The position numbers and the translations under genes are program-made. 64,000 bases of DNA, from contig OZ038473.1 in NCBI GenBank assembly GCA_964036295.1, forward strand, positions 1,743,501 through 1,807,500, read 5' to 3'. Below the pieces are notes generated by a model that was not told the DNA's origin, did no database searches, and saw only the letters and a program-made list of their open reading frames with translations. Positions within the stretch are counted from its first letter, which is position 1. Every line of letters begins with the position of its first letter. Source of the stretch: Plumapathes pennacea (taxonomy: Eukaryota; Cnidaria; Anthozoa; Antipatharia; Myriopathidae). Below, piece after piece: positions 7,349 to 55,474 of the stretch.

Positions 7349-7766
7349 CGCCCGGGGGGGGGGGGGGGGTACTCAATAGGAATTTGGGTAGGGGTGTTCC
7401 GCTGACTCTATAAAACCCTGACCCTATTCAAGACACAAAAATGGAAATTTTGCTATCCTGTCTAAGACAAAGTGCTCTAATTTGATACCCTGTTCAAGAC
7501 TAAGTTTAGATAAGTTAGCCTGCGTTGCACGCGTTTCCACTGGAACATATGAAGAAATCACGCGAAAATGCCGAGAGCAAAAATGTGGTTGAGGGGGGAG
7601 GGGAAGAGGAGAAAATCTTCAGAAAATAACCCTGTTTAAGACACGAAAATGTAAAATTTGATACCCTGTTTAAGACAGAAGACCCTGAAAATGATACCCT
7701 ATCGGGCGGAACATCCCTATATAGGAAATATATGGGAGTACCCCCCCCCCCCTCCCCCCGGGCAAA
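7349..7766. mobile_element. MITE-like element with G-run terminal inverted repeats
   Basis: The left end reads CCCGGG followed by a long G run and GTACTC. The right end reads GGGAGTAC followed by a long C run ending CCCCCCGGGC, the inverted complement of the left. The interior has repeated phrases of the type CCCTGTTTAAGAC and no open frame. Size (about 418 bases), inverted ends and lack of coding suggest a non-autonomous DNA transposon. The homopolymer ends make exact borders unsafe. Confidence 0.6.
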
Positions 7767-7928
7767 AACGGTTGCTTGTGTCTGAATTAAAGTTTTCCTT
7801 CACGAAACATTTTTAAATTGGCACTGCGAAAGATGTGAAGTAACAACATCAAGCTGAGACGCAGGTCAGCTTCATTTCGTGTTTCGAGTTATTGGCCGCC
7901 AGTTGGTGGACAACCTTGGTGCGGCCGC

Positions 7929-8151
7929 TTAAAGCTGGTGTTACACTGGTCGATTTGCAACGACAATTTGCAACGCCGATTTTTTACAAATTCACGCAAC
8001 GGTGTTGCAAGTTTTTGAATCGCTTTCAAAAACTTGCAACGCGTTGCAGCACTGCCAACATCGCGAAAAATCGTTGGCAATGGGGTGTTACACCTGAACA
8101 ATCTGCGCAACATCGTATCGTTGCAAATCGACCAGTGTAACACCACCTTAA
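7929..8151. mobile_element. TTAA-flanked MITE, copy 1
   Basis: A 223-base element lies between two TTAA tetranucleotides. Its inverted ends share GGTGTTACACTGGTCGATTT, and the interior is rich in inverted GCAACG/CGTTGC phrases. A second copy of 224 bases is at 45310-45533, also TTAA-bounded. TTAA target duplication is characteristic of piggyBac-type transposases, so this is probably a piggyBac-mobilised MITE. No transposase gene is present. Confidence 0.75.
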
Positions 8152-12400: not shown

Positions 12401-12470
12401 CAGTTGAAGCTTCGGGTCGTGTTCTGTGGAGCACTAAATAAATTACAAACTGAAGAGGTAACCAGACGAT

Positions 12471-13437
12471 ATGGACGAATCGCTGCGCCAACTAACCGAC
12501 GAAGCTCCACCCACACCAACTTCAGTGTCCTGTCTAAACTTCCCGAGTGCCTATTTTGAAGTTGGCGGCAGTTCTGTTCCTTATGCCGTGAATGCTACGC
12601 TAAATGTCCCGCTTGCTCTCGTGGCAATCGCAGCGAACATGATGGTTTTCTCGGCATTTTTTAGGTGTAACTCCATCCAAAGGCCTTCTAAGCTTTTACT
12701 GTGCAGTCTCGTTTTGACCGACTTTGGCCAAGGTCTGGTCACACAGCCTCTGTTTATAGCGTTGCTTTGTTTCCAAAGCTGGAAGGCTTTATACCGTGTC
12801 CTGTATGTGTGGCGTTGCTTTTGTCCTCATTGCATCGCTGTTCACTTTTGTTTCTCTAACGACAATGGCGGCTGTAAGTCTGGATCGCTACATTGCCTTG
12901 TTCAGCCATCTTAGGTACCATGACATCGTTACAACTAAGCGAGTTTTTGCACTTCTCGTGATAATCTGGTTTTCTGGCGGAGTCTTCGCGTCGACGTGGT
13001 TTTTAAACGAGATGTTATTTGGCCCTCTGGCACTTGGCTATAGTATTTTCATGTTTCTTATGACATCTTTAGCTTATATTAGAATCTACAGGCGATTATG
13101 TCGCCGTCATAGCACTCGAGTACAAGAACGACTTAACATCAGCCTGCACCATGACGCTGGGAATACGCTGAATGTGACACGATACAGACGAACAGCATCC
13201 ATAATGCTATGGCTTCACGGACTATTTATCCTTTGCTACGTGCCATTTGTTATTGTCGAGATCATCAAGCAGACATGGGAACATAACAACATCACCCAGA
13301 TTATAGGCGAGTTTTCCGTTACTGTTTTGTTGATGAACTCAAGTCTAAATCCACTCTTGTTTTGCTTGCGTCTCCCTGAAATTCGGACTAGGGTTCTGCA
13401 AATTCTTAGAAATTTATGTTCGTTTACGGATAATTGA
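12471..13437 (+). pseudogene. Class A GPCR, intronless, with a one-base frameshift
   Basis: Two overlapping frames together make one rhodopsin-family receptor of about 320 residues. The first (from ATG 12471) gives an outer N-terminus, TM1, TM2 and the tryptophan before TM3. The second, from about 12780-12796, gives the TM3 cysteine, the DRY motif (SLDRYIALF), TM4, TM5, a TM6 with CYVP, and a TM7 with NPLLF in place of NPxxY, ending at TGA 13437. The frame changes by one base between 12780 and 12800. The rest is well kept, so this is either a young pseudogene or a sequence error. The ligand cannot be told. Cnidarian genomes carry many single-exon receptors of this sort. Confidence 0.75.
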
Positions 13438-13681: not shown

Positions 13682-13884
13682 TCATGTAACTAGATGCCAG
13701 TACATTCTTTGATTATAGCCCTCTTCCAGAAACTTGATCTGTTCCCGGCGGTGTTTACGGCGCAGTTCCTGGTACTTTGTTTTAATAGCCTGGTGGAATG
13801 CACGCACCACTGCCGACATTTCCTTCTTCAGCTTTTGGGGGTCGGGCCTGGGAGCAACCTCTAACATCTCGATCATCTCGTGAC
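13682..13884 (-). CDS. Receptor last exon: basic cytoplasmic tail
   Basis: The exon starts after a CAG acceptor in phase 1 and codes for about 67 residues rich in Lys, Arg and Glu. It contains KLKKEMSAVV and YQELRRKHRREQIKFLEEGY and ends at the stop at 13682. The helical, heptad-like pattern suggests a short coiled coil on the inner face of the membrane. I do not recognise a named domain. Confidence 0.8.
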
Positions 13885-14184
13885 CTGCCCAGACAAATCA
13901 AATGTGAAATTCAGCTGTTTACGCCCATACCTACCCATTGATTCCAAGTTCTAATCGCAACTTCTCGGCTATTTATTACTACCGTAATGATTCTAATAAC
14001 GGCCCGGGGCGCTTATTTAAGCTTATTGGAGACAGGGCGCTCATTAGAATCACTACGGTATTATGAATAATTTTATTAAGTTTTCCATGCACCCAAGCAA
14101 ATTTCAAAATATGGGTCATTTCCAAAAAAGAGTATTTTCTTTCCATTGAAGAATTTCCGTTATATAGACTTCAGAAAAACAGTT

Positions 14185-14220
<36 letters not shown>

Positions 14221-17200
14221 GTGTGTGTGTTTTAGGAGAATTGACAACAATAGACAGTATAAAATAGATTTTCAACTACTCATACAAGTTCGTTTCTTGG
14301 TAGTGGTGTGGGTTGCCAGGAATTAGAAATATTCTAGTTTGACTCAAATTATTTGGCAGAATGAAGGGGGGTACGTGGGACCACTTACCTTCTGCTACTG
14401 TTCCGTATTTACTTGTAGTTTTTCTTCTTCGTCGAAAACATTCCCAGACGAGACCAAACACGACAAATACTGCTAACGCACTTCCTAGAACCGTCAGAGA
14501 CGTTCTGTAGAAAACTGATCGATGCGTTAAAAGCGACGACGATTTCTTGATAGGAAAGGAAGTATCATCCGCCTGCAATGAATTATGGGATCACAGCATC
14601 ACTGCAAGTCTCCAGGAGGGAAGAGTAAAAAAGTAAAAGACAAATCGAGACACAAAACCACAGATGGGATAAGGCAGTTAGCTGATTCGTGTCTGCATAC
14701 CTCAATAGGGTCGATATTCCGCCCGATTACCCGAGTTATTAACTCGTTTTCCGACTTTACAAAATCCCTGAAACACGTGCTCAATTTGACAGCATCCCCC
14801 GAGAGCGCGATGCCCATGGCGGACTTGTAGCGAAGTGGAATGATTTCTTTGATCCTTATCCAGTTCTGGCTGAAGTATTTCTTTTCGCTTGCTGTAGCGT
14901 ACGAGTCCAGTAGAGCTGCATGAACCCGATTAGCTTCCAGGGCCTCGTATATTTGATAAAGGTTTCCGTAACTTGAGCCTATCGAAAGAGCAGAACAGTT
15001 TAAATAGACATGTTTCCGTTTCACAGGCAGCCCCTTACCCCTCCCCCACCCCCCCTCCCCCAGAAAGAAAGAGCGCGCGTGACGTGCAGGTTGCTCGCAC
15101 AAGACCCCGCGCTAACTGCAGAGAGGCTACATATAGACATTCATAAACGAGATGGTGTCGTGATTAGTACCCTCGCAGGCTCGGAGATTATGTTTCATTA
15201 TATTTAGGTCTATTTTCGGATGACTGTCGAAAGCAATGGTATATTATATTGCTTTAATGCGCTTTTGCATTGGTCCTAACAAGCTTGGGAGTATTTGTTA
15301 ATAAAAACAAAAACAGAATCCGGTGCGATCTGTTCACTCGTTCGCACAGGCAAACGCAAACTAATTTCAGTTAGTAGGCTTCGGGTTCATGGAAAGGATT
15401 ATTTTATAGCCTTAGTTTGTAATTGGCGCTGTAATGACTGTGGTTTTGATTTTCGAAAGTCATCCTAAAACGCTCTGATGGATTTGTGTCAGTACCTGGG
15501 TCAAGAACTGCATTTCTTCGAACTGCCAGTTTATATTCCGAGGAGTTGGCGATTGCCGCCACCTATTGTAATTATTCAAGGAATCGAGTTAAGTACCGGT
15601 CTATACAGAAAAAACGTGACAAAGTAAAACACAAATTATTCGACATGACAAAAATCCATTTGTAAAAGCAAAAAGGCAAGCAAACCGTCGTTCCATAAAG
15701 GATGTGGTCCGAATCAAATACCATTGTCATCAGGGCAGCTGTTATACTGCTTGTCATGACGGCGATCAATACGATACCAAACCATGTCCACACAGATGCA
15801 AAACAGCGCCCCAGAAAGGATTTTGGAATACGATCACCGTATCTGGGCAAAAACAGCAGCATCACGTTAAACAATCTGGGCCCGGTTTTTCGAAGGTCGA
15901 TTAAGCTAATCCAAGATTAACGAAATTCTTTCTCTCGACCTCTCTGTCATTAAACTGCTTGGTTTTGTTAAAAGATGGATTAGAAAGCTTGTTCCAGCTT
16001 AAAACATTATCAAGAAAGTCGTTGTGGACGAAACTTTCACGTTTTCAGGCTAAAAAAATGACAAGAAAGTTTAGACCTAATCCAGGATTAGCCTAATCGT
16101 GCTTTGAAAAACCGGGCCCTGGTAGTTTATTTACAACCAGAAGAAAAGAACTAGGAAGACAAAACAAAAATACAAGAGGAACAAGAAAAAGATTTTAGAA
16201 CAATAACAACAACAAAATCCGGAAGGACCGAGGGAAAAAAAATACAAGGAGAACAAGGGCAAGACTTCACCGAGAAGGAAAGACCTATTTTTAAAGTGAA
16301 TGGATACTCGCACTTCCTACCCCACTGTCGTCATGGTAACAAATGACCACCACATGCCCTCCATTGTGCCGCTTATAAAGGATTCTGTGAAATTCTTAGA
16401 TTCATGTCTTACATCCTACAAGAAGAAACAAAAGAAAACATTTAGGAGATCGTGGCTCCGCTTGCTGTGTTTTTTGTTATATTATCAGGGCTGTTGTTGT
16501 TGTTGTTGCTGTTGTTGTCTGCGGCAGTAATAAACATTTTGAAACTTTGAATCTGTTCCTTGGCTTTTCTTTCTGTTTTTTTAAAGTGGCGTTTTCAAGT
16601 CCATAGTCCTTTGCGCGCCGAAACCCTTGGACCGCCATTTTAGGATCTTTTTAACTCTCGTTTGAGGAGGAGATTAGTTTTTTTGGCTTTGAAGATGTAA
16701 ACGAAAACATTGCGGTGTTTTTCTCCCTCCCAGTTCGACAAGCATACTCACCAATATCCAAATGGTGATTCCAGCCAGATAAAGCATGACCATTGCAAAT
16801 ACGACTTGAGGCCAGCGTCCCGAGACAGCCCATAGAACTTCGCCATATATCTTTCTAATTTTTATAGTGTAAATGACAATGTTTTTAACAAGGTGTTACG
16901 AGTAAATAACGCTAAGGTAATAATTACGGGCCCTGGTGACGTCACCACACAGCATTACACTATACAACATTTATACATTACAGTACATAGCATTACACCA
17001 TATACAACATTACATTACACTATATAACATTACACCATACCTTTGACCATCAGTGACTATGAAAGCCACGCCAGGTTTCTCCAAGACAGGAATAAACTCA
17101 TAACTATCCTTAGTACGGTCATTAGATTCCTGGTCCATGCTTCCAGCGACAGGAAAACTCAAAGACGTTTGACTATTTAAGGAATTTGATACTTCAATGA

Positions 17201-20200
17201 CTCCCTGTTTCTTGGCTTTTTTTCCTTGTCCGTCATGAGAGTAATCCACGATGGACGGCCCATTCTCGCACGATCCACAGCACTGTGCTACCATGTCGGT
17301 TATGATGGCAGGGATGATCCCACCGTTATGTGTGTACGAGCCGTCAGTGGCTTCTATGACGTATGGGGGATGGGCCCACCAATTAGTCGAAAGGGACGGG
17401 TGACAATTACAGGTTTCTACAATAAAGGGAAATGGTAGGACACTAGTTTAATGGTCACTCGCATTTCTTGGTCACGTAAAATAGATAAAAGTTAGTTACG
17501 ATATTTTCTTTGGTGCTGAAAAGCTTACTATAAATGATCCAGAAGCCAACTAAACAGCTTGTCGGAAAGCACACCGAGGGACCATAAAATGTGAGTTTTA
17601 GGGGAGCCAAAGTCATTTTTGCACATGACACAATGTACACTGTTACATCGAGTCATGCATATAATTGTGCACTAATAAGCACATGCGACATACTAAAAAT
17701 ATGATATTTGCATACAGTTTTTTGATCTAGAGGTCAGAGAAATTCATTTATCTAGCATTGTTTTGAAAGTGGTTATTTTATATAGCCCATATATTTACTC
17801 GTCCAAATTTTCAAATCCATACAGTCATACCCGTCATAGACTAACAGTGGCTCAAAATAATACACAGCAGATATGCTTGACACATTTAAGATAGCTAACA
17901 ACAGCAAGTCTTACTTGCAGTTACAGTTGCCCAAGGTCCATGGCCCTTCACTGTTCGTGCAGCAATTCGTATTTCGTATTTCACATTGTTCTTTAAGCCT
18001 TTTATATCCCGTTGTTCGGACGATGCATTAGTCCGTATCGCCGTCCCCGCAAAAGATTTGTTTCTGTTCGCAATCCTGTACTGGATCGTGAATCCACGAA
18101 GTATTCCATGAACTTTGTTTTGGGGAGGGCGCACCCATTTCAAAGGAATCCTAGTTGAACTAACGTCATCTTTTGCTCTGACTGATTGTGGAGGGACGGT
18201 TGGAACTGCAACGATAAATCAGGGACTTTTATGGAGTTTTTTTTTCCATGCTCCTAAAAAATGTGCATTTTATGCTTTCACCTTAGCCAGACAACAACTG
18301 TCTTGTGGCTCAAATAGTCATGTACGTATTTAATATTGGACAACTGTCCCTTCACTCTCCCTCAAGATTGTAAGGTGCTTTGATTTTGCGTTTGCAACGC
18401 TATTAACAAGTACAAACAAATTTAGCAATAACATATACAACGAAAACAAACTTTAAAATTTAAAATTTAAAAAAGTTAATCATAAATTCAGTAGTTTGGC
18501 TCCTGGTTAACTGAAATTTTCACAGCTTTTGTGATTGGTGTTGTGATTACTTTGTGGTGTTGATTTTACGAAAAAAATCCTAAAACAGATTGCTCTAGCA
18601 TCGAACTTCATTCTCAACTCTTACCGTCCTCATCCGTGGTTTGAATGATAGGCGAGGACTCCTTACCATTCCCCTTAATAGTAAATGCCAAAACCGTTAT
18701 GGTGTAGTTGGTATATTTCTGTAGATACCCAATAGTTGTTCTGCGCTCTCCGGGTGGTATCACAACCTCCTTGAATTCCGCGTTTGAATCGATAGTTTTC
18801 TTGTAAAATACTTTATATCCTCTGAGATGCCCGTGCACACAGCAACTGGGGACTGGGTCCCAGTAGATTTTTAGTTCCCTGGAACTAATATTGTCTGCTC
18901 GAAGGTTTTGAGGAGGCTGACTGGGAACTAGTAACAAAGAAAACTAAAGTGAAATTCCCACACGAACACGTAATACTATTTTACTGACATGACTTGTATG
19001 ATAAAATGTGCACTCATATGGAACACGAGAAATGACGAGAATAGCCAAATGGCAATTTGAATAAAAAATACATCGCATTCTTTTGCCGCTTTTATTTGAA
19101 AATAGCTAATGTGCCTACTGCACATGCGTAACTAAACACTATGCTATAATCTAAAACCTTGTTAACTGCTTGTCGTTCGACTGTTCGTAGCCAATCACAA
19201 CAAATCCTTCTGTGACGTAGTCATCGCAACTACTCTAAAGCGAACGAATAGTCGTCGAGAAGAGTTTAATTTAACTACTTCGCAGTAGACACATGTACGC
19301 TTTGCGGACCTATTTTTTTCGTAATGTCAGACACAAAACAAAACAACACGTACATTGGCTTGCCGCTCGAGCTAAGTTTAATGTTGAGGTCTCGTTTTGC
19401 GAACAAGTGATCAAATGATAGAGGAATAGAAGATAAGGATAAGTAAATGGATAACTTTATCGAACTGTAACGAAACACGTAACGAAACAAGACGTACCGT
19501 CTTCATCAGTGGTCACCTTTATAGGTGTCGACCCAGCTCCCTCTCCTTTTCGTGTAAAAGCTCGCACTTCTATGGCGTATTTCGTAAACTTTGAGAGTCC
19601 CGTCACTTCAACAGAGTGATTGCTTGAGTCTTTAATGATTATAGGCAAGGACACAGCTCTGCGCCTATCTGTGGCTTTTCTGTAGTACACGCTGTAACCC
19701 CTTAGAATGCCATGCACAAAGGACTCTGGGACATTCCCCCAACTCACGTTTAAACCCGTTGAGCTTGTGTTGTGAGCGTTGACATTTTGCGGTGGGGCGC
19801 TGGGAACTAACACAAACAGTTTAATAATACATGATTACATACTTATTTATAACACAATCGTAACTTGTCTGTATTCTAGGATTATAATTGACACCTAACC
19901 TTTTAGCGTGTGTAAATGGGGCTTGGCAATATTACTTTCTTCACATGTTTTTCCAAAGTTTGATCTGAACACCAACAAAACTCGCTTGGACCATATTAAG
20001 TCAACACAGGCGTAAAATTTCATCTGTTATTCACTCGGTCACATGCACACTTTTTATTTAGTCCCATTTACTTGCTTAGTTTTCGATTCTTACCGTCTTC
20101 GTCGGTTGAGGCATTAACGATTCCAGACTCGGCTCCATTGCCTTTCAATGTGAAAGCCAATACCATTATCATATATGATGTGTACTTGTGTAATCCCTTA

Positions 20201-23200
20201 ATCTCCAGTCTATCGGCGCTTCCCACTGCTGTTTTATAGTTGTACGTGGAATTTAAACTGGAGGCTTTCCTATAGAACACCCGATATCCACGAAGGTTGC
20301 CGTGAATTGCCTCCTGGGGGACTAGATACCAGTTCACCATGAGACTGGTCGAACTTGTGTTGTGCGCGCTGACGTTTGTAGGTGGGAGACTGGGAACTAG
20401 AGAAACGTGTAATAGAGTTAACGGGGGCAACATACGAGTTAAATACGAAGCTGGTGAGGATTACTGGCGAACGATGCCCTGGATACCTTGTATACCTTAG
20501 TTAGATGAAAGTTAAAACTATCAATTCTCACTAACCTTTCAAGAAGAATATGTATGAGTGATGTGGGAGAGTTGATAGTGAAAGGGTTAAAGATGTACGA
20601 AGATACAAACCGTCTTCATCCGTGGACACCAGAATGCTTTGCGACCTCGTTCCGTTGCCGATTCGAGTGAACGCAAGAACTTTTATGACGTAACGAGTGA
20701 ACTTCCTCAGTCCTTTTATTTCAACTTGAAGAGTATCAGGGCCCGTTGTGAAGATTCTGGTGTAGTTCCTAGACTCCACTGCCCGCTTAGTCAGCACTCG
20801 ATATCCTTTAAGAACACCGTGAACGTAATGAAATGGCACTGGGTCCCAGGTCACCATCAGACTTGTGGAGCTCGTGTTTTGGGCGATGACGTTCGGAGGT
20901 GCAAGACTGGGAACTAAAACAAGCACTATGATTTCAATATTCGCCATGTACAGTATTTACAGTGAAAATTATTTGAATACGATAATACTCTTACACATAT
21001 AGATAAGAAAATACGCGGTGAGAGACAACTTTTTATATCGGTGAAGCAATTGGGCTGTTTGCGCTGTATTGTGTTGTGTGTTGTGATTGGTTTCTTATCT
21101 GTTGATTGGCACCTGTCAAAGTATTATGATGAAATTTGAGTCGCACTATACTAGAGGCTTTCTCTCGCTCAATAATACACAGTCTTACTGTAGACCACTC
21201 TCACTAAGACGATCACAACCTTGACATGATGTCAAGTCAAACCGAATTTAAGTCACTTAGTCCAATCTCTCACCATCTTCTTCAGTTGAAGTCTGAACTG
21301 GAAGCGAAACTTTTCCATCTCCTGCTTTGGTGAATGCGAGCACCGCGACAATGTATGTTGTGTATTTGTCCAAGTTTCTCAACTCCAGTTCCAGTGACCC
21401 TGGGCCAGTGATGTTTATCTCCACATTTGAGTCATTTTCCCTCTTGAACATGACTTTGTATCCAAGGAGGTTGCCGTGAACAAACTCTATAGGGACTGGA
21501 TCCCAGCTAACCAGAAGGCTGGTCGAGCTAGTGTTATGGGCATGGACTCGAGTTGGCGGAGAGCTGGGGACTAAATGAAATATATAAATTAAAAAAAAAA
21601 ACTATGGTGTTGTTAGTAATGCATTCCAGATATTGACCACGTGGTTAAAATGCTGATTAATCTGTTCGCTCCCAAGAATGATCGACTTCAATTTTCTCCT
21701 CCAGTTTCTCGCCAGAAATATATCATACAGTAAGGAGAACTTGACTTTTGATAGCTGGCTCAGAGAGCTGATCGAACTATCAATTATCACTACATCACTC
21801 ATACATTTATTTCTTAAAAGGTTGGGAGAATATTCGGAGCTTACATCAAAAAGAGGCTCACCATCCTCTAAAGTTTTTACGTTGATTGGTGCACTAATAG
21901 TTCCTAGGCCCCAAGGAGTCATTCTTCGTATCCAGATGGTGTAATTCGTGAACTTCTTCAATCCTGTTATCGTAACATTTCGCGCTGTATCGTTAGCTGT
22001 CTTCAGTCCAGTTACGTTTTCACTACTTGATGTCAAAGCGAACGTCAGGTAAAATCCAATGGTGGTGTTCAGGCAATCTGCGCATGCCCAGGAGATGTAA
22101 ATTTCTGTCGAAGCTGTTGCAACCGCAGTTTGGATGGTCAGCGGCTTACCTGGTACTAAACAATTCAGAAAAAATCCTTTGTTACTAGGTGGTAAAATGT
22201 TTCGTTAAAATCGGCCAATTAGAGCCGTTGTTAAGGCGTGCGGCTCCTCATGTGTGTGGACTAAATTTTAGTGATTATACAATGTCATACCATTATCTTT
22301 CAGTAGATAAACTGGAACGTCTCCAAGTTTTCCATATTTGTAAAGTGCATCGTAAAGGAGAGTGAAATGGCTCATTTGTGCCTTTTGACCAAACACGATG
22401 TTTACATCTGCGAGAACGCTTCCATTTCTATTGAATATAAGAAAATGAAATCAAGTCATTTTGATCCTCCTTGATATGTATGCATGTTCAGAAACGCTGT
22501 TGATGTCGCGACAAACACTAAAAATTAAACTGATACAACCAAAAAAAAACATACAACACAAAACAACCGAGAACAATTAGACGTGGAGTTTTGTCTTCTC
22601 ACCTACCTAAAGCGAAGGCAAGTTACGTATCTAAACTGCGATTCATTTTGATACATGCTTCGCACCTGAAATAAACGAAGAAGAAACAAAGTCGTGCTGA
22701 AAAATAGAACTTAAATTTTGAAAGGCTTGCGCGTTGTAAAGGGTTTTTCATTTTGAGTTTGTAAGGGACATATCCTACTTTTTAATTTTACTTACATTAC
22801 TCTCGAGTTTGCTCGACAGGTTTCTGAAAGCCTCGCTTTTCGCGTTGGATAAGTTACTCGTCCATTCAATTCCCAGCAGACAGACCGTGAAGTCTATGCG
22901 GACAACTAGGGTAAAAGAAAATAATAATATGAAAAGTCTGGCAAACATGCAAGACAGTTCCATGAACAGCAATGGCAAAAATGGAATTTCTAATTAATCG
23001 TAGTCATTGAACCAACGTCTCGATTTAGGCCTGCATCGTATATGCACTTATACATGGGAATTTTTGGGATGACTATTTTGGAGTCTAAACCGTTCGTTTG
23101 CCAATCAATTCTCGTGTATTTCAGAAAAACCTCAATAAACTGACATATTGGATTATTATTTTGGCCGTTTGCGTGGCAAACACCTGATACTGATCAGCTA

Positions 23201-26200
23201 GTATAAGTTCTAAAAATGTTTTACCTTTTTCTAAGGTCCTTACAACTATCTTCTGGCTGGAAATCCCTGGACCTCGCGTTGTCAATTTTAAGATCCAAAC
23301 TGTATAGTTAACAAGGGGCTGGAGCCCTGCTAACTCAAGGGACCCCTTGTTGTCGTATACATCTGCACGCAAAGCAGTGCTGTTCGAGCCAGCATCAGTC
23401 TTTTGATACTCTATTCTAAATCCTGTGGTCAAAAACAGCTCGCAATGCCTTTCGGGTTCCCACGTAACACTGATGCATGCTGGACTCGTTGCAAGTGCCG
23501 TGAAGTTTCTTGGTGGTTTCCCTGGAACTAGAAAATCGAAGCTTAACTAATCTTTGTATTCTTGGTCAGAACTGATACACAATAGTAGCATTCCAATAAA
23601 AAAAACAACTCACTGTTATCAAACAGCAGCTTTACGGGGAATTCATATATTCTTTGTCTTTGGAGATAATGATAAAACTTGTAGAAGTTTGCTGCTCTGG
23701 TTTCTGGACCAAAGACAACAGAAAATTCCATCGCTATACTTGTCAGATTCCTGAAAAGTAAAAGAAAGAGTCAAATCCAACTCCATCGAGACAAAATATA
23801 TTCCCGTCGGTTCCCCAGACAGGCAATTTTTGCTCATGTGAAACTGCAGTAAAAAAATGTCGTTCAGCGGTTATCCATGCGAATACAACAAGTCGGCCTT
23901 GCGGGGCATTTAAATCTTGGGTTTCTTCGATTCACTCGCTGGTTTCTTTAGTTTATGCTCGCGAGAAATCATGGAGAAGAAATATTTGGTACGGATCAAG
24001 TTGTAGAGGGATGGAAGGACCTAGAGGATGAGGGAAATGACGAACAAGATTTCAGCTCCGCTGAGTTTACGCGATGACAGACTGAAAGATTGGTTCAACT
24101 TTCACCGCCATGTCAAGTGTATTCGCGGCTACATTACAACAACGAACAGGTAAGATTATTATTATTATTAGTTTTTGTTTTCATTATGTCCTTAGTTCCA
24201 TAACCTTTCCAACTACTCTCGAAATAATGCTGTAGCATAGTATTACCTGTATCAAAGTTCGACCGTCAGAAAGTCTGTGTTTACTGTGCAACGTTTAATT
24301 ATACCTGATACTCCGAGCAAGTGAGAGACTCCTGAGCGTAGAATTATTTGCGTAAACCTGTCTCAGCTGCAGAAGAAAGGAATACAAAGTTGAGAACAGC
24401 ATAATTTTTGCTCTGAAAGGATAATTTCTCCAAAGGGTTACACTTGAGCAACTATAAGAGAAAGTTCATTATTTATACACGTGCTTCCATCAACTTGACG
24501 CATTTGTTATCCCAGCAAAGAATAAGTATGTTATATCTATACAATATGCAGTATACATAGTTGTAGCATTACTCACTCTTGAATTGTGAATTTGAGTTTA
24601 TCATATATACATTTCATAATACTCACTTCTTGTTGCAATGCTTGAGTCAAGTTGTCGGTTATGACACTCTGAGTGTCTTCCCCAAATTCATTGGACACTT
24701 GAATTGTAAAATTTATGAGCAAGTTGGTGGGAACTGTAAAAAAGAAAGGAAAAATTTTAAAACAGTACACCAGTATACTTGAATAAGGTATAAATACCCA
24801 AGAAATACATGCATACAGTGTGATCCAAGAGCCATGAAATTCCTGCACCATAGCTAAATCAGCCCATCATATCTTTTTGTTTTAACATTGTATTTTTACG
24901 GGTGCCAAGATTCCATTTTTGAACAGAAATCTTGTTAACTTTAGAAGATTATATAAATTTCACACTCATGAATTGCTTATACCTTCAGCTGGGGTCCTAA
25001 ATGTGACAGGCGGTGTAGCTTCTCCAAATCCCTTTGATGTAATGTTCATAACTTGGACTGAATAAATGGTGTCACTCCATAACCCACCAATTTCAACTTC
25101 AGTTGAAGTTTTATCAGTCACTATTGAGTGCAATTCCTCACTTTGAATTGACCGATAACAGATCCGGTAACCCCACAGTGCGATGTTCTGATTGGTCGAT
25201 ACATGCAACCATGTGACACGAACACTGGTCGAGCTTGTTGCAGTGATGTTTACTTCTGCTGTAGATTTTCCTGGATCTTAAGACAGACTGAGTTAATATA
25301 TGGGCCATGTCATTGAATGCCGTGAAAATAACACTCAAAAAAAGAAACTTTGTATCTATACCTAAAGGCTGAGATTATCATTATTGCAGGCTACATCACC
25401 TAACCGGCAAAGATTTTAATTTCGAGAAATAATTTATAAACCAGTATTGATAGTTAACTCTTTCACTCCCAGTTTCAGAATGCAAATTCTTCCAGTTATA
25501 AAATAAGAAACTGTATGAGTGGTGAAATAAGAATTGATATCTCAATCAGCTTTTATGTGAGCAAGGTATCAAAACCAAGTTCTCCAAACTGTATACTGAT
25601 GAGAGATTGAAATAAGAAAATTGAACTTGATCATTATTAGGAGTGAAAGGGTTACAAACTAGAACAAGTGATACTGGAGAAGGATATAAAGAGAATGAAG
25701 CATATTGTTGGAGTACAAACATGGCATTCGTACTGATGTTTTTAACATTTCCGATCTCAGTTGCTACTTTAAACTGATTTTGTCTCGTTAGAATATATAG
25801 AAGAAGATAACGAGTAAAAAAATTCAACACCAGACCACGTTTTCCACTGATACACCTATATGCTATTTAAGATATGAACACAGAACATGGCAGACAATAT
25901 GTGGCCTGCGTAGCAACAGCACAAAAGTGTAGGGGAGGGGGGAGGGGTTGGGGAAGGGGGGACCTTCCCCCACCCCCTTCCCTCTTCCCCCTCCCCTTTT
26001 GCGCCGTTGCTGCGCAGGCTGGACAAAATGCATCTAGCAAAACAACAAACCTGGTTGTTTCTGACTTGTACTCGTTGTTGCGTTTGGGGATAAAGTGGAT
26101 TTCAGTCGAGCGGAAACCGAAGGAGAGCTGATCTGGGAAGGAACAGGCGAGATTGACTGCAACTCAAGTTTAGTCACAGATCCTTGCAAGGACGTCCCAT

Positions 26201-27969
26201 AACTGGAATAACCCGCGCCTGCTTCCAATGTTTTGAACATGTTCGTGTGCGTCCTTGTAGCCCCGTGAGTGAATGCACTGGCAAAGTCAGTGGAATAAGA
26301 TAAAAATGTTTGGCTCCTAGCCTTCATCTTAAAAGCTTCCGTGAGGTGTTCGGTTTGTGTTTTCCAACCATCGGTCAGCCTTTTGTCCAAATTTGCTGAT
26401 GCCAAGGGTGAAACTGAGAAAGTGACATGATAATCAAAGGCGGACTTTTTACTTGAAGGGACTTTTTGACTATGGCGGAGTCCAGGTGACCCACTACTGG
26501 CATCTGAGTTTTTCAGCGTCTCGGTAATAATGTGTGCAGTAACGCGAGCGTTAAGATCGTGATCTGAATTGCTGTAGGCGTTCATGCTCGGAGTAATGGA
26601 GAAATGTGTCGTAGTTGGTTTTGAAGTAATAACTGCACCAGATACCCGCCATAATTTCTTGGCCACTTTCGTCGTATCCGCAGAGAGCGAACGAGAGCGA
26701 GTACTGAGTACGTTTCTCCACTCTTTGTCTCGTTGAATAACAGTTGCATTGCGAACCCTTGTCGATATATTTTGAGTACTGGCAACCTTTTCCGCGACGC
26801 TTCTGTTTGATGCCCGCCAACCAAGCGAACATGGAAGAGAAACGTTTGAAACTGCGGAGATACACAAAACGCATGTTGGATTACTCGGTATATTTTAAAA
26901 TACGAGACTCAGCCACATAAGCTAAACCGGAGGAAATCAAAATGTAGATTCTCCCAACATCTTGAGAATAAAATGTATGAGTGATATGTAATGAGAATTG
27001 ACAGTTTAATCCGGTTTTATCTTAGCAAGGTATCAAAAACCAAGCTCTCCTTACTAATTTCTCCTTACTATATTTCCTAAAGAAACTGAAGGAGACAGTC
27101 GATTACTCTTGCGAACGAAAGGGTTAATAGTTGGTTGGTTGTGATCGTCCGGGCTAGAGTAGTCTCCAGAAAGACTGTTGTTGGTGACTGACGTTTCGAC
27201 TACCTGAGCGGAAGTCATCTTCAGAGTCAAGTGCTCTGAAGATGACTTCCACTCAGGTAGTCGAAACGTCTGTCACCAACAACAGTCTTTCTGGAGACTA
27301 CTCTAACCCGGACGATCACAACCAACCTACTGTTCACACTCCTGGGTTCAAACCATTTGCCATGAAAGGGTTAATATCGATAACAAAAGCCTCTAATGAG
27401 AAATTAGTTAGATTACTTTAATACAGAGGCACAAAATATGCAAGCGACCTGTTTAACCCGTCTTCAAGAGTGACCAACTTCAATGTCTCTTTCAGTCTCT
27501 CACGAGAGATATCGTACAGTAAAGAGAACTTGGGTTTTGATGCCTTGCTCTTGGGAGAATCTTAATTTGAGTTAATGCAGCCAAGAATGCTGGCTTGAAC
27601 GTCTGGCAGTGGTTTTTGCCATACTATCCTGGTGTTTGTGCAGTCATTATACACAAGACTGGCTTTACCAGCCACTAAGACCGCCCTCACCATTGAGTTG
27701 GTAAAAGTCCCTATCCACAGCCCTGAGCAAATGCTTTCCAGTCCCACATGAAGAATTCCACAACAGGCACTCGTCATTTTTCCGGTCATACTCGAAAGAC
27801 TTGCAGCTGTACAGGTTTTCTTGGCTGACTTGCAAGCAAAACCGCGCGCATTCCTCGGGGGACTGGAGCTCAAACCTCGCTTCCTGGAATCCAGGAACGG
27901 CGCGGGCGTAATTGAACGTGACAAACTTTGACAAGAAGGAAGGATTGGAGTTTGGTCCGGAAGATGGGT
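13682..27969 (-). CDS. PAN-SEA-FN3 receptor fused to a glutamate-receptor-like channel with TVGYGD filter (5' end missing)
   Basis: 25 consecutive minus-strand exons join without a phase conflict: 27969-27691, 26851-26051, 25276-24983, 24733-24627, 24366-24305, 23750-23614, 23527-23225, 22905-22796, 22665-22607, 22427-22291, 22155-21862, 21570-21274, 20913-20611, 20396-20094, 19806-19498, 18927-18625, 18205-17915, 17416-17041, 16854-16752, 16415-16321, 15842-15686, 15562-15496, 14978-14701, 14572-14389 and 13884-13682. They encode about 1950 residues: PAN/Apple, Ser/Thr-rich region, FN3, SEA-like, FN3, SEA-like, seven FN3, ligand-binding lobe S1, TM1, pore loop, TM2, lobe S2, TM3, basic tail. 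The pore reads TMTTVGYGD, the K+ filter, as in prokaryotic GluR0 and unlike ordinary animal iGluRs. The expected role is a cell-surface receptor with a ligand-gated, probably K+-selective pore. The signal-peptide exon (phase 1 donor) was not found; a weak candidate is at about 31639. Whether all exons are in one transcript is inferred from phase. Confidence 0.85.
13979..14061. repeat. Short inverted repeat (MITE-like) in intron
   Basis: The arms TACCGTAATGATTCTAATAA and, inverted, CATTAGAATCACTACGGTA enclose a GC-rich centre with CGGCCCGGGGCGC. The element is about 83 bases, within the last intron of the receptor gene. Confidence 0.65.
14191..14230. repeat. (GT)n microsatellite
   Basis: About 20 GT dinucleotides with one GC interruption, in an intron of the receptor gene. 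Confidence 0.95.
14389..14572 (-). CDS. Receptor exon: TM3 (fourth membrane segment with the P loop counted)
   Basis: Phase 0 acceptor, phase 1 donor (GAAG then GTAAGT). A hydrophobic stretch (SLTVLGSALAVFVVFGLVW) is followed at once by a basic stop-transfer ECFRRRRK. This is the third membrane helix after S2, equivalent to iGluR M4. Confidence 0.85.
14701..15562 (-). CDS. Receptor exons: ligand-binding lobe S2
   Basis: Two exons (15562-15496 and 14978-14701) join in phase 1 to give the second ligand-binding lobe. The first has VAAIANSSEYKLAVRRNA. The second has DPGSSYGNLYQIYEAL, then HAALLDSYA, then IGRNIDPIE just before the membrane. In iGluRs the GST/GSS turn binds the ligand carboxylate, and an acidic residue at the LLDSY position binds its amino group. 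Here that residue is Asp, as in glycine/D-serine subunits, rather than the Glu of AMPA receptors. A family B MITE sits in the intron between the two exons. Confidence 0.85.
15212..15478. mobile_element. MITE family B, copy 2
   Basis: Inverted ends TTTTCGGATGACTGTCGAAA on the left and TTTTCGAAAGTCATCC on the right, matching the element at 8406-8706. It lies in the intron between the two S2 exons of the receptor. Confidence 0.7.
15686..16854 (-). CDS. Receptor exons: TM1, pore loop with K+ filter, TM2
   Basis: Three exons join in phases 2-0, 0-2 and 2-0. Exon 16854-16752 gives TM1 (VVFAMVMLYLAGITIWIL). Exon 16415-16321 has a strong pyrimidine tract and acceptor and gives the pore helix MWWSFVTMTTVG. 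Exon 15842-15686 completes the filter as GYGDRIPKSF, followed by TM2 (WFGIVLIAVMTSSITAAL). Across the splice the filter reads TMTTVGYGD, a textbook potassium-channel signature. The orientation TM1-P-TM2 between S1 and S2 is that of ionotropic glutamate receptors and prokaryotic GluR0. Confidence 0.88.
15878..16119. mobile_element. MITE with GGGCCCGG terminal inverted repeats
   Basis: The left end GGGCCCGGTTTTTCGAAG and the right end, inverted, CTTTGAAAAACCGGGCCC enclose about 240 bases with inner inverted GATTAAGCTAATCC/GGATTAGCCTAATC. No open frame. It lies in the intron between the pore-loop and TM2 exons. Confidence 0.75.
16920..17040. repeat. Short tandem repeat of CATTACACTATACAA type
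   Basis: Imperfect units such as CATTACACTATACAACATT, CATTACACCATATACAA and CATTACACTATATAACATT lie end to end, abutting the splice donor of the S1 exon at 17040. The expansion sits inside the intron and does not touch the coding frame. Confidence 0.7.
17041..17416 (-). CDS. Receptor exon: ligand-binding lobe S1
   Basis: One exon, phase 1 in and phase 2 out. It follows the last FN3 exon in frame (TVTA then KTCNCHPS). It contains NWWAHPPYVIEATDG, GGIIPAIITDMVAQCC, a variable Gly/Lys-rich loop, LSFPVAGSMD, and YEFIPVLEKPGVAFIVTDG leading into TM1. The order fits the S1 lobe of iGluR-type periplasmic-binding domains. The usual P-x-T and following Arg that grip the ligand are not evident, so ligand identity is open. 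Confidence 0.82.
17915..22155 (-). CDS. Receptor exons: seven FN3 domains in tandem
   Basis: Seven exons (22155-21862, 21570-21274, 20913-20611, 20396-20094, 19806-19498, 18927-18625 and 18205-17915) are each 291-309 nt and phase 1-1. Each encodes one FN3 domain that starts VPS.PP or similar, has a central HG.L.GY strand, and ends TDEDG. FN3 domains are extracellular beta sandwiches used for adhesion and spacing. Phase 1-1 symmetrical exons can be duplicated without frameshift. The middle five are most alike (HNTSST and LRGY motifs), which fits recent tandem duplication. The first (22155-21862) is the most divergent and carries extra cysteines. Confidence 0.9.
18340..18597. mobile_element. 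MITE family B, degraded copy
   Basis: Contains GTGCTTTGATTTTGCGTTTG and, on the far side, GTGATTACTTTGTGG with AAATCCTAAAACAG, matching the family at 8406-8706 and 15212-15478 but with decayed ends. Intronic, between the last two FN3 exons. Confidence 0.5.
21680..21845. repeat. Dispersed repeat family C, inverted copy
   Basis: Reverse orientation of the family seen at 25455-25662 and 59803-60012, with AATTTTCTCCTCCAGTTTCT, TATCATACAGTAAGGAGAAC and AAAGGTTGGGAGAAT. It sits in the intron just past the donor of the first of the seven tandem FN3 exons. Confidence 0.65.
22291..22905 (-). CDS. Receptor exons: second SEA-like domain
   Basis: Three exons (22905-22796, 22665-22607 and 22427-22291; 110, 59 and 137 nt; phases 1-0, 0-2 and 2-1) make about 102 residues. 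They contain RIDFTVCLLGIEWTSNLSN, a central VRSMYQNESQFRYVTCLRF, and VLADVNIVFGQKAQMSHFTL. The layout (a beta strand, a long helix, a strand, then a V.V.I.FG strand) fits a SEA module, an O-glycosylated surface domain that often self-cleaves. I do not see the classic GSxxx cleavage motif. Confidence 0.65.
23225..23527 (-). CDS. Receptor exon: FN3 domain between the SEA-like modules
   Basis: One phase 1-1 exon of 303 nt. It begins IPGKPPRNFTAL, has the FN3 core CISVTWEPE and NYTVWILKLTTRG, and ends VRTLEKG. It is similar in layout to the domain at 22155-21862 (VPGKPLTIQ and NYTIWIRRMTPWG), which supports duplication of a SEA-FN3 pair. Confidence 0.82.
23614..24733 (-). CDS. Receptor exons: first SEA-like domain
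   Basis: Three exons (24733-24627, 24366-24305 and 23750-23614; 107, 62 and 137 nt) have the same phase pattern as the second SEA-like module. They contain LINFTIQVSNEFGED, LRQVYANNSTLRSLSLARSI and SIAMEFSVVFGPETRAAN. The last exons of both modules are exactly 137 nt. The family call is by pattern and is less sure than for the FN3 domains. Confidence 0.65.
24983..25276 (-). CDS. Receptor exon: N-terminal FN3 domain
   Basis: One phase 1-1 exon of 294 nt. It begins DPGKSTAEVNITAT, has the core SVRVTWLHV and WGYRICYRSI, and ends FRTPAEG. This is a standard FN3 fold with several sequons, placed just before the first SEA-like domain. Confidence 0.82.
25455..25662. repeat. Dispersed repeat family C
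   Basis: About 208 bases bounded by TTAACTCTTTCACTCCCAG and, inverted, GGAGTGAAAGGGTTA. The ends form an imperfect terminal inverted repeat starting with TTAA. The interior carries GAATTGATATCTCAATCAGC and GCAAGGTATCAAAACCAAG. No coding. It looks like a non-autonomous DNA element with several copies in this window. Confidence 0.7.
26051..26851 (-). CDS. Receptor exon: Ser/Thr-rich extracellular region
   Basis: A single phase 1-1 exon of 801 nt gives 267 residues rich in Ser, Thr, Ala and Lys, with several sequons (NVS, NRS, NIS, NAT). It has no membrane segment and no domain I recognise. The composition suggests an O-glycosylated, mucin-like stalk between the PAN and first FN3 domains. Confidence 0.72.
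26935..27128. repeat. Dispersed repeat family C, adjacent to the palindrome
   Basis: Contains GTAGATTCTCCCAACATC, GAGAATTGACAGTTTAATC and GCAAGGTATCAAAAACCAAG, and ends AAAGGGTTAA. The large palindrome at 27131-27327 starts right after it, and a further AAAGGGTTAA follows at about 27365. The palindrome may therefore have inserted at this repeat's end. Confidence 0.65.
27131..27327. mobile_element. Near-perfect 200-base palindrome (foldback element)
   Basis: The left arm begins TTGGTTGGTTGTGATCGTCC and the right arm ends GGACGATCACAACCAACC. The arms match almost base for base over about 95 bases each, round a short centre near 27228. Inner phrases such as GTTTCGACTACCTGAG and its complement are clear. 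It has no coding capacity. Such hairpins are typical of foldback MITEs. It sits in the intron between the PAN and Ser/Thr-rich exons. Confidence 0.9.
27691..27969 (-). CDS. Receptor exon: PAN/Apple domain
   Basis: A phase 1-1 exon of 279 nt. It has a Ser/Pro/Asn-rich lead (PSSGPNSNPS) and then a PAN/Apple module with cysteines in CARFCLQVS, YSCKSFEYD, ECLLWNSSC and FYQLNG. PAN/Apple modules bind proteins or sugars. The incoming phase 1 acceptor needs an upstream exon that should carry the signal peptide. Confidence 0.8.
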
Positions 27970-27974
27970 CTGAA

Positions 27975-30376
27975 ATAGTGATTATAGTAATATTGCGAAT
28001 TGTTAATATGCATAACCCCCAACAGAATGACGTATCTGAGTTCGTTCGACAATTTAAAGTTGCGATTTTTGCTCACGTTTGCGACCTTCTTTCGACACGA
28101 ATCGTAACATGTAAATCAACTCTACGACTATTGTGCGTCGATAGGTTTGCATGCGACAATCGAAAGCAAGAATTGTACCGTGTAAATCGGCCTTATAACG
28201 ATATCATATAATTAAAAGTCAATTGATTCAAAGCTACGGCTGTTGATTCAGTTGACTCCTCGCCTAAATATACAATTAGGCGAATTTCGTTTTTGGAAAT
28301 CGGCGGTCGACGACTTAAAGTTTGTCTTTATGGGAAATACGGCAGATTTTGTAACATTTTTAGCCATCAAATAAATTATACACCTGGTTGTTAGGACCAT
28401 GACATTAAACGCTAAATCAGACAAATCATTGAGTGTGCTGCATTTGTTGGTCTCTGTGAATGATCGCTTGTTTATTTTATCCTCTTTCCGTTTCCATGAC
28501 GACGCCTACTATTAGAGTGAAATTGCCCTTTTCTTTACAAATCACGTGCCAGCCAAATGCATTAACGCGAGAAGTCAAACACACACTTAATTTTATTTGA
28601 AATCCAAAATTGATCAGTGGCAAAGAATCGGAAGCAGTGCTTTGTTATGATTTGTGGCAATGGACGTTTCCGACTAAAGTGTAAATAGTGTAGAATCTGA
28701 GTAAAATTCAAATTTTTTTTTGTCGAACTTCCCCCCAGTGTTTTATACGCTCCCAGTTTTCTAAGTTCATTTATTTCTTTCAAAACGTACGTTTCTTTTA
28801 TTTTCATTATATTGGTTAGCAAAGCTCTGCGATCAATTAATGGAAAAAATAGAGCAGGTGCTAAAACTCGGCAAACACTTGACTTTTTCAAATTCATAAA
28901 AGGTTTAAAATTAAATCGCTTTAGCTACCTACATATTAAGATTTATGAAACATAAAGGTCGAAATCGGGTCGACTATATCATCTTTTTAACAAAGTTTCA
29001 AATGAGCATACAGTAGTAGTACTGAAAGCAAAACTCTTCATTGTCATTTAAGCATTTTTGTGAAGAAATTATCTTTTCTATTCTCTTGAAGTAACGTCCG
29101 CTGTCTAAGCTATTAACAGCTAGTAAAACCCGGGTCGTTTTTTGTAACTCTGTACCGATCCAATAGTGTGGCAGATATATTCCCTTAAAATCATGATCTT
29201 TTTACGCATTGATGGCAGTTTTCAGGTGACAATTTTTACTCCTTGCCTGTTTGGTTGTAAACAGACAGCGCAGTGTATAACTAATTTATTTTAATAAAGC
29301 TTTATCCGAGATGATAACCCCGGCAATTCTTCCTCTTAAATTTAAGCGTCGTGGAGCCCAGCAAACCTGTGATCATCAGTCATCATGCCTTGGACCGTAC
29401 GAAATCAAACGGAACATCGTAAAGAAAATCAGCCAAATTTTTGGCGGATGGCCTTCATTATGCCACTACATTGTATCAATTTACCTCTACAATCCAATAA
29501 CACATGTCCGTGTGATGACCCAAAAACCAGAAACGTCAAATAAATCTGAAAGTAGGATAAAACATATAAAGATTAGTGATTGGAAAGGAAGAAAAAGTTG
29601 TATCGAGATCAACAAAACGCCCTCACAAACCTTTGTTATCAAGCAGACGATGGCAATCAACTCCGAATGAGGAGCACTTGCCCGCATCTTCGATCTAAGT
29701 CCTGTTGTAAAACACTGTGTTCCTGCGGTTTGCTTTTTAATCGACAACGATATTTTATATCACTTCAGAGGTCCAACTCGATATCCGCTTTTATGTCAGC
29801 TGTTGAGGCATACAACTCGTCTTATAGTCAACTGCACCGGTGACTTCTTCCCATATCGTCACGGCCGGAAGTCTTTCGCGCCTGATACATAAAACCAAGA
29901 CGAAAACCTTTAAGAAAATGTGCTTTTGTCCAGTCGTAGAAATTGTGTGTGGTAGTCAAACAGTTTCAGATGAGAGTGTGAGATACACTACCACTAAACT
30001 CTGTTGTTAGGCGCGCTTGTCTCTTTATGCACTTTGCTTTAATTTAGTTAATATGATTTTACTTCCAAAACAAAAATAGCCCAATGTCAGGTACATAAAG
30101 TACCGGCTTTCAAGTGGAAGAATTATATTTCCGGTCGAACACACCGAAAAGAGAAAACTCATTAACGAGATAGTGCAGTTTGAACATGAATTTGCCATCT
30201 CGAGTATTTTAGACGAATTTTGAGTACAGGCAAAGTTCACGCAAGCGCTAATGGTTTTATAGCCGATCTGAACCATTGCTTTCTCTTATCGCAAAATTGT
30301 TAATTTGCGAATTTATGGGCTTGTGCCTTGAAGAGCTTTAAACTAGGATGCAATATAAATGTGGCTTTTGACTTTT

Positions 30377-40700: not shown

Positions 40701-41381
40701 TTTAAGAATCTGCTGTGTATGATTAATGTCCCCAAGGAGAAGGTCCCTCAGGTAAAGCAATAAATTTATGGTTTTATCCACAGTACTGAAAGACATATTT
40801 GTAAAATAAAACAAAAAATAATCACGTCAACCAAAACTGCGGCGAATTAGAGTAGATACTTTATCAGAGAAACGTACACTTTCGCTGATGAGTGCAAGTG
40901 GTGAATTCTTTCACTGCCAAGCTCAAAACGCAGATTCTCTCGTCGTCAAAAAATAAAAAAATCTAAGTCTCCATTCTGTATGATATATTTTCTGGTGAAA
41001 AACTGAAAGAGAAAATTGAAGTTGATCACTCTTAGACGAAAAAGGGTTAACAAACACCGGGACAATCACTGCCATGTGGGTGAGGGGGTGGGGGGAGTCT
41101 AGTCGCGTTTTGAACTTCACAACATTGCAGTGGAACCGTGAAAGGGGTTCGACGTTGTCATGTTGAAACTTTGTTTGTGGTCTGCACAGGAATCTGCGGC
41201 CACATTGAAGGACGCGGAGGAGGGACAAGCGAAGAAGAAGAAAGAGGAACCGAAGAAGAATACGTCCGTTGTCGACCCTTCCTATCACTGGGTTGACATG
41301 ACTTCCAGATTCGCTTTCTTCATCTGTTACTCAACTTTTCTGTTGGCCTATGTTATCTACTACAAAAACATAGAAGACTGA
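37733..41381 (+). CDS. Cys-loop ligand-gated anion channel A (GABA/glycine receptor-like)
   Basis: Nine exons in phase: 37733-37797, 38007-38110, 38310-38377, 38841-39058, 39459-39541, 39911-40048, 40217-40431, 40599-40751 and 41190-41381, giving 411 residues. It has a signal peptide (ATG 37733), the loops FFRQWWYDPRL and WTPDTYFWNV, and the Cys loop C-13-C in CDMDLRIYPMDTQRC. TM1 follows, then TM2 with PARTALSITTILTTIL, TM3, a short Lys/Glu-rich inner loop, and TM4 ending YYKNIED. The PAR motif before TM2 is the anion-selectivity signature of GABA-A and glycine receptors. Its agonist is unknown. Intron 1 holds a degenerate GTCATGGTGAT repeat and intron 4 a minisatellite. It converges with gene B, stop to stop, about 1.1 kb apart. 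Confidence 0.92.
38537..38724. mobile_element. MITE-like inverted repeat in intron 3 of channel A
   Basis: The left arm GGTAGGTTTGGCTCAAAAAG and the right arm, inverted, CTGAGCCAAACCTACC enclose further inverted phrases around ACAATATCCGCCATTTTGCA. About 188 bases, non-coding. Confidence 0.75.
39095..39440. repeat. Minisatellite of TGACTTACTCG units
   Basis: Roughly thirty imperfect 11-base units such as TGACTTACTCG, TGATTTACTCG and TGACTTGCTCC run through intron 4 of channel A and end about 20 bases before the next exon's acceptor. Confidence 0.9.
40905..41049. repeat. Dispersed repeat family C, partial copy
   Basis: Begins ATTCTTTCACTGCCAAGCTC and ends AAAAAGGGTTAA, the same end types as the copy at 59803-60012. 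It is shortened inside. It lies in the last intron of channel A. Confidence 0.6.
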
Positions 41382-41879
41382 GGCAGCAAACCTTGGACTG
41401 TTATAACGGTCGTACATGAAGTATAAACAGGAATTGCCTTGATGACGTCACTGTAAGTACACGTACCAGAGTGCCTTGCGGCAAGCTATTGCTTCCGTAT
41501 TGTTAATCGCGTGAATTTTTCGAAGTCTTTTATGGAGGAAAGACTACCCGAAGTAACGAAGTTATAATTCAAGGAATGTTGACTGGTCAAAATTTCGCTG
41601 TCTGTGCTTTTAATTCATGCACTGGAATGCAAAGTATAGCAGTGTTTGAAAACTGAAATAAGAAACATGACGTCACAAGGTTACTTTATACTTCATGCCC
41701 TACCCAATCTTGTGCAGCAGAGAAAGGCATTCTGGGAGATGTAGTCAGATGACGTTAAAAGGGTAAAAGTGCGTCCTCACTGATTAACGTTTGGGTGCAA
41801 TAATGTATTTTAAATTGTTCTACTTCTATAAATGCTGTACTACATAAAGGTAGTCACATGACTGTGCTGCACTAAATAG

Positions 41880-42443: not shown

Positions 42444-42461
42444 GGGGGGGGGGGGGGGGGG
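42444..42461. repeat. G18 homopolymer
   Basis: Eighteen G residues just downstream, on the minus strand, of the stop codon of channel B at 42469. Confidence 0.9.
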
Positions 42462-42468
42462 ACCGACG

Positions 42469-55470: not shown

Positions 55471-55474
55471 CCCA

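Follow-up and report, generated by a model that had tools for sequence, protein, structure and literature searches.

Can a single animal gene join an adhesion-type outer region to a glutamate-receptor-like channel whose pore carries a potassium filter? The question is raised by a locus of the anthozoan Plumapathes pennacea, located in a stretch of 64,000 nucleotides of contig OZ038473.1 (hereafter the window; all positions are counted within it unless a related locus is named). A glutamate-receptor binding site combined with a K+ filter has been described as confined to Bacteria, as far as the authors of that work could determine (PMC2950845). The rotifer receptor AvGluR1 (Janovjak 2011) is an animal ionotropic glutamate receptor (iGluR) that has a K+ channel signature and eukaryotic iGluR architecture (PMC12332018). 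Here, we report that the locus probably encodes a subunit of an ionotropic receptor that resembles GluR0 and carries an outer region of the adhesion type.

The receptor gene extends from 29687 to 13682 on the minus strand and consists of 27 exons and 26 introns, all of them GT-AG, that encode 1989 amino acids without an internal stop (Table 1). The original prediction had placed 25 exons on one strand, splicing in phase, and all of these are present between 27969 and 13682. They are not the whole gene, however: two upstream exons that supply the ATG and a hydrophobic signal peptide had been missed, and because these carry the start codon and signal peptide, the gene begins at 29687. In-frame stops lie 5' of the ATG, exon 2 leaves in phase 1, matching the entry of the PAN exon, and the open reading frame ends with the stop at 13682. 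All FN3 exons are of phase 1-1, and both SEA-type domains consist of three exons with phases 1-0-2-1.

Some of the splice sites are weak. The acceptors of FN3_7, the first transmembrane helix and S2a score -1.1, -1.0 and 0.1, respectively, by a matrix built from 102 sites of paralogues, which were partly chosen by pyrimidine content, and many background AGs score as high. For M1, an acceptor before 16850 was rejected, as it breaks the frame; S1 can continue into M1 only through the one before 16854. The intron that separates the two (17040-16855, 186 bases) has no counterpart in 19 of the 20 chained paralogues, and its retention would introduce stops. It is partly a tandem repeat (periods 5, 22, and 37) with AAAG at both ends, and looks to have been either gained from the repeat or kept for removing it.

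Table 1. Parts of the receptor gene, with window positions, strand, and the evidence or detail for each.
Feature	Position	Strand	Evidence or detail
Exon 1: start codon, first part of signal peptide	29631..29687	-	Donor GTTTGT, phase 0 out
Exon 2: remainder of signal peptide, phase 1 out	29485..29545	-	Hydrophobic segment aa 8-30
Exon 3: PAN/Apple	27691..27969	-	Pfam PAN_1 34 bits (cut-off 21.4)
Exon 4: Ser/Thr-rich linker, ~267 aa	26051..26851	-	Without Pfam match
Exon 5: FN3_1	24983..25276	-	Pfam fn3 40.4 bits
Exons 6-8: first SEA-type domain, without GS site	24733-24627, 24366-24305, 23750-23614	-	Alignment to second SEA, and phases
Exon 9: FN3_2	23225..23527	-	Pfam and phase
Exons 10-12: second SEA, FRNG/SVLA	22905-22796, 22665-22607, 22427-22291	-	Pfam SEA 45.0 bits (cut-off 26.4)
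Exons 13-15: FN3_3 to FN3_5, one exon each, phase 1-1	22155-21862, 21570-21274, 20913-20611	-	Pfam
Exons 16-19: FN3_6 to FN3_9, one exon each, phase 1-1	20396-20094, 19806-19498, 18927-18625, 18205-17915	-	Pfam
Exon 20: S1, first half of ligand-binding domain	17041..17416	-	S1 profile vs bacterial GluR0
Exon 21: M1 helix	16752..16854	-	Hydropathy; S1 and M1 share one exon in 19/20 chained paralogues
Exon 22: P loop through TMTTVG	16321..16415	-	Filter break common to paralogues
Exon 23: from YGD, remainder of filter, M3 helix	15686..15842	-	Reading frame and pore match
Exons 24-25: S2, second half of ligand-binding domain	15562-15496, 14978-14701	-	S2 profile vs bacterial GluR0
Exon 26: M4 helix and basic RRRRK	14389..14572	-	Hydropathy
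Exon 27: cytoplasmic tail and stop	13682..13884	-	Reading frame

Behind the signal peptide, the encoded protein has the PAN domain and the Ser/Thr linker, continues with nine FN3 and two SEA-type domains, and closes with S1-M1-P-M3-S2-M4 and a short tail. This agrees with the domain order first proposed (PAN/Apple, two SEA-like and nine FN3 modules, then a channel core), both by Pfam and by alignment of the two SEA-type domains to each other. An InterPro-type check of the joined protein had been suggested, and our Pfam scan gave PAN_1 (E = 2.7e-8), fn3 in nine stretches (1+4+4, with some overlapping FN3-like models), SEA (second domain only), and Ion_trans_2 on the pore (48.7 bits, E 7.2e-13) above the gathering scores; Lig_chan reached 25.2 bits on the window protein, under its cut-off of 30.8. 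Pfam matched no LIVBP-type amino-terminal domain across the outer region, where PAN, fn3 and SEA are found instead, and the FN3/SEA array occupies the place of the animal iGluR amino-terminal domain.

Hydropathy revealed four segments, corresponding to the signal peptide (8-30), M1 (1643-1665), M3 (1703-1737), and M4 (1881-1908). The order S1-M1-P-M3-S2-M4 is given by the exon order together with the hydrophobic segments, and the orientation is deduced from the signal peptide. Because the signal peptide places the N terminus outside, the pore loop would enter from the inside. N-glycosylation motifs number 43 in residues 1-1640 and zero in the tail.

The pore filter reads TMTTVGYGD and is split by an intron as TMTTVG/YGD (in filter motifs, the slash marks the break). 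A core query of the 290 Mb genome gave S1 matches, counted by hand, at 26 or more loci outside the window. The resulting set comprises 32 loci outside the window, of which 28 were read: 20 S1 loci plus eight more (two of the 26, and six picked by a pore or Lig_chan match), with four S1 loci left out of the reading. Thus, at least 33 related loci exist in the genome, the window included, and the K+ filter was read in 29 of them. All 28 related loci read have both the filter and the break at the same residue, as [TS]T[VL]G/YGD. The 20 core-read loci all have TT[VL]G/YGD[RK] (TTLG in L030 and L036), and the eight further loci, in which splice sites were not scored, all have [TS]TVG/YGD (STVG in L054 and L058). 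Of the 20 loci scored for splice sites, 19 interrupt the Gly codon behind GG, just as the window gene does; in the twentieth, L040, the program picked a wrong start, yet YGD is there also preceded by AG. The predicted K+ filter, split across a splice junction, is present in the window gene and in every relative read. Core exons were recovered in window order in 17 of the 20 paralogues, L036, L040, and L046 having been dropped from chaining where at least one exon was not cleanly found. As the chaining program imposed the phases of the window, agreement in phase is a consistency check and not independent proof.

For comparison, a Lig_chan search of the same genome listed 56 matches, and the six ordinary iGluR pores read (L001, L003, L005-L008) are without the K+ filter. 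The original prediction had denied this filter to ordinary animal iGluRs; this holds for the six pores read in this genome, but the rotifer AvGluR1 was already known as an animal iGluR with a K+ signature (PMC12332018).

The core could in principle be a plain two-helix K+ pore attached to unrelated outer domains, with S1 and S2 forming no ligand-binding domain and gating achieved in another way. Several observations point in that direction. Ion_trans_2 outscores Lig_chan on the window protein, and the best PDB match of the pore is Lmo2059, followed by K+ channels (Kv). Furthermore, no Pfam binding-domain family was matched by S1 or S2 of the window, by the 10-member alignments or by the divergent members tried, and sequence comparison with the PDB gave no binding-domain match for the lobes tried. 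Lig_chan was found in 10/10 members at E up to 10, the best match being 5.8e-10.

We compared the core with bacterial receptors at the level of profiles. A scan of bacterial genomes gave at least 591 pattern matches, 503 of them encoding relatives, and the best 80 were analysed. The scan patterns included the filter, so the likeness of the filter to this bacterial set is built in; a second pattern was drawn from S2, and many matches continue into S2. Among these best 80 matches, the filter is present in 80, at least 160 residues follow it in 79, and more than 150 precede it in 75. By Pfam, SBP_bac_3, Lig_chan, and Ion_trans_2 occur in all 80 and Lig_chan-Glu_bd in 75, and it is this domain content that identifies them as GluR0-type receptors.

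The S1 profile of the family (24 lobes) matched the bacterial S1 profile with an hhalign score of 36.1 (E 7.8e-6, probability 84), and the S2 profile (23 lobes) matched bacterial S2 with 47.5 (E 3.4e-8, probability 95); each bacterial profile holds 74 rows, six of the 80 having been dropped for length. Crossed pairs used as controls scored 9.4 and 23.7, the latter for family S2 against bacterial S1 across 23 columns. FN3 controls scored 8.4 and 8.5 against the bacterial lobes and 12.4 and 9.0 against the family lobes. As a yardstick, ordinary iGluRs scored 123.1 and 85.8 against the same bacteria, values that exceed those of the family, which has thus diverged further than ordinary iGluRs have. 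The family lobes (24 members) are weakly similar to the ordinary iGluRs of this genome (S1 25.8, S2 18.7, against profiles of five and four rows, one of them a GluA2 sequence), and this comparison was not significant using ten members; the matches to the bacterial GluR0 set are the clearer ones.

A tree of the region from M1 to S2 (57 rows) recovered the 24 family rows as one group (SH-aLRT 99); the search was brief, the branches are long, and the bacteria had been selected by filter likeness. The family group falls with the 28 bacterial GluR0 rows, apart from five ordinary iGluRs of this genome (97). An old K+ lineage, a transfer, or a reversion would each be compatible with such a tree. M4, which is absent in GluR0, speaks for a shared history with eukaryotic iGluRs or for a separate gain.

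Against the idea of a plain K+ pore, the S1-S1 and S2-S2 matches with GluR0 exceed the crossed controls, the best 80 bacterial matches are all of GluR0 type, and the topology puts the pore loop inside, as in GluR0 with its inverted pore and unlike K+ channels (PMC6385376). We consider it unlikely. The proposed resemblance to prokaryotic GluR0 now reaches beyond the motif, since it rests on the lobe profiles and the 80 bacterial matches. The receptor is GluR0-like rather than a GluR0 because it has M4 and the FN3/SEA/PAN array.

In iGluRs, an S1 arginine grips the alpha-carboxylate of the ligand and an S2 acid grips the amine. The pattern for the arginine column was found in 20 of 24 family members, none of which has R (Q in 7, D in 4, V in 4, I in 3, M in 1, and A in 1); the D of L054 comes from a misplaced match, which leaves 19 members usable, and the column rests on alignment through a weakly matching stretch, where the bacterial arginine pattern itself was found in 63/80 only. 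At the position of the S2 acid, 20 of 23 members carry D and one carries E; the pattern missed the other two. Because Gln, Val, Asp, Ile, Met, or Ala takes the arginine position in the members scored, the ligand is probably not glutamate, and most of the family is predicted not to bind glutamate in the usual way. Among the four members without the arginine pattern, L055 and L059 read GRD and GRE nearby (by eye). As these lie near the iGluR arginine position, the two members may keep the ligand arginine, and such forms may still bind amino acids. Both are without upstream FN3 among the matches listed.

The apparent absence of the usual ligand arginine, together with the weakness of several acceptors, would also fit a decayed or non-conducting receptor that is retained for its adhesion region alone. 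We regard this as quite improbable in view of the 1989-codon open frame and of the conservation of the core. In an alignment of ten members with 32-37% identity to the window core, the S2 Asp and most residues of the filter do not vary, which suggests selection on the pore itself.

Using two FN3 domains as the query, we found an FN3 exon that precedes S1 by no more than 3.5 kb, in the same orientation, at 21 or more of the 32 related loci. The 48 FN3 matches listed include no case downstream of S1 in the same orientation and no case within 5 kb in the opposite one; the remaining 11 loci have no upstream FN3 among these matches. The ~8 kb upstream of five relatives was inspected further (E up to 1e-3), giving 9, 10, and 10 FN3 hits for L050, L051, and L053, respectively, and zero for L049 and L052. 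In L049, S1 is preceded at ~0.5 kb by an Ig exon (7689-8001 of that locus) and at ~5.8 kb by a CUB exon (2702-3130), which may belong to a different gene. Since CUB and Ig exons precede S1 there, the outer region may have been swapped among family members. Four other loci (L054, L056, L059, and L060) have a Met and a hydrophobic stretch immediately before S1, and L055 has a hydrophobic stretch at which the sequence piece ends (all by eye).

That two neighbouring genes, one for an FN3/SEA/PAN adhesion protein and one for a K+-filter receptor, were wrongly joined by eye is very improbable: the four loci with a Met before S1 indicate that a stand-alone receptor can exist, but FN3_9 joins S1 in phase 1-1, no Met with a signal peptide was seen before S1 in the window, and the order of FN3 then S1 is repeated across the family, including the three of five relatives with upstream arrays of 9, 10, and 10 FN3. 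A wrong join by chance is unlikely given that the filter and its break recur in every relative read and that FN3 precedes S1 at so many loci, and a single gene joining array and channel core, as first proposed, is borne out at the level of genomic DNA. This looks like a real receptor family in this animal genome, with dozens of relatives.

The two SEA-type domains differ in one respect that bears on function. No SEA model in Pfam matched the first, but its alignment to the second covers 77 aa with 31% identity (E 1e-9), and both domains share one three-exon phase layout. The second contains FRNGSVLA, whereas the first is without GS. The best PDB sequence match of the second SEA is adhesion GPCR F1 (ADGRF1), a weak one (E 0.066) aligned on FRNGSIVA. 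A GSVVV or GSIVA motif leads to self-cleavage of SEA domains, and the cleaved halves likely remain associated until ligand or force separates them (PMC6954182). GSVLA is near, but not identical to, these motifs, and its position in the loop between strands 2 and 3 is deduced through the weak ADGRF1 alignment. Based on the ADGRF1-like FRNGSVLA and the published account of cleaved SEA domains, the second SEA may undergo self-cleavage, with the two fragments staying associated until they are pulled apart. Among the genome matches listed, no clear SEA was found in the relatives; L050 has one SEA-like exon at its position 1905, by eye.

The K+ current, ligand, and gating, like the cell-contact or matrix link first proposed, are predictions from sequence. 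Four GluR0-like subunits would form the channel, and their pore loops would reach in from the cytoplasmic face, as they do in GluR0. The binding domain would close on a small, probably non-glutamate ligand and open the channel, which would pass K+ and so damp the cell. The outer array would probably anchor the receptor to a neighbouring cell or to the matrix, and pulling apart a self-cut second SEA would change or release the array.

A further-reaching proposal, possible but doubtful, is that the genome holds a multigene family of adhesion K+ receptors that is the channel counterpart of the adhesion GPCRs. Contact, or matrix pull on the FN3 array, would gate the GluR0-type K+ pore directly via the self-cut SEA and the joint between FN3_9 and S1. 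Minimal GluR0-like receptors, of which the genome still has examples, would have been the starting point of the family, with FN3, SEA, PAN, and once Ig added later. A genome with at least 33 related loci, ranging from members whose signal peptide directly precedes S1 to FN3-armed giants, would show that receptors with a K+ filter diversified within an animal, and the relatives offer steps by which such a receptor acquired M4 and an outer region. Should the array gate the pore, the receptor would be an ion channel that converts adhesion into hyperpolarisation.

The closest known systems include Synechocystis GluR0 and the group 1 prokaryotic iGluRs (PMC2950845), which share the order S1-M1-P-M3-S2, the K+ filter, and, by profile, both lobes. 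The coral gene differs in having M4, nine FN3, two SEA, PAN, introns, and a changed arginine column, whereas GluR0 is without NTD, M4, and CTD (PMC6385376). AvGluR1 is likewise an animal iGluR-type receptor with a K+ signature, and the account of it in PMC12332018, the description on which our comparison is based, leaves an FN3/SEA/PAN array unmentioned. The animal AKDF, NMDA, and epsilon iGluRs (PMC6307864; PMC12226733) have the same order of outer region, S1-M1-P-M3-S2, and M4. They differ in the outer region and in lobes that are only weakly alike, and the ordinary pores read in this genome differ in the filter. Adhesion GPCRs such as ADGRF1, ADGRF5, and ADGRG6 also have a modular outer region with SEA (PMC6954182), including the FRNGSIVA of ADGRF1 that corresponds to FRNGSVLA here, but the protein described here has a channel core in place of seven helices, and no GAIN is among its Pfam matches.

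The original prediction knew of no described animal receptor with this layout. We likewise found no description of an iGluR-type channel linked to an array of FN3 or SEA domains in the titles and abstract beginnings of the papers listed by searches of the open-licence PMC literature, and term counts for the main text of PMC6307864 returned no mention of fibronectin, FN3, potassium, selectivity filter, or GluR0. Thus, animal K+-filter iGluRs are not new, AvGluR1 being one, and it is the PAN-SEA-FN3 layout that was not found described.

The neighbourhood of the receptor gene is rich in ligand-gated channels. Three open frames with Neur_chan_memb, the membrane domain of Cys-loop receptors (39868-40506, 42918-43385, and 62437-62814), lie within 37800-45700 and 59100-63300. 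A Rhodopsin-family GPCR (12462-13437, plus strand; 7tm_1 3.7e-19 in 12760-13437) is located tail to tail with the receptor gene. The window also contains a 637-residue open frame with a NACHT domain (1192-3105, minus strand; Pfam 2e-20), representing an NLR-type gene, and a TRAF/meprin MATH domain (52633-53178, plus strand; 3.3e-43). A long simple repeat of Glu-Gln type (55461-55880) is open on both strands and in more than one frame. Inside the intron between the PAN and linker exons, an inverted repeat with a GACGTTTCGACTACCTGAG-type end (27188-27272, by eye) is probably a small mobile element.
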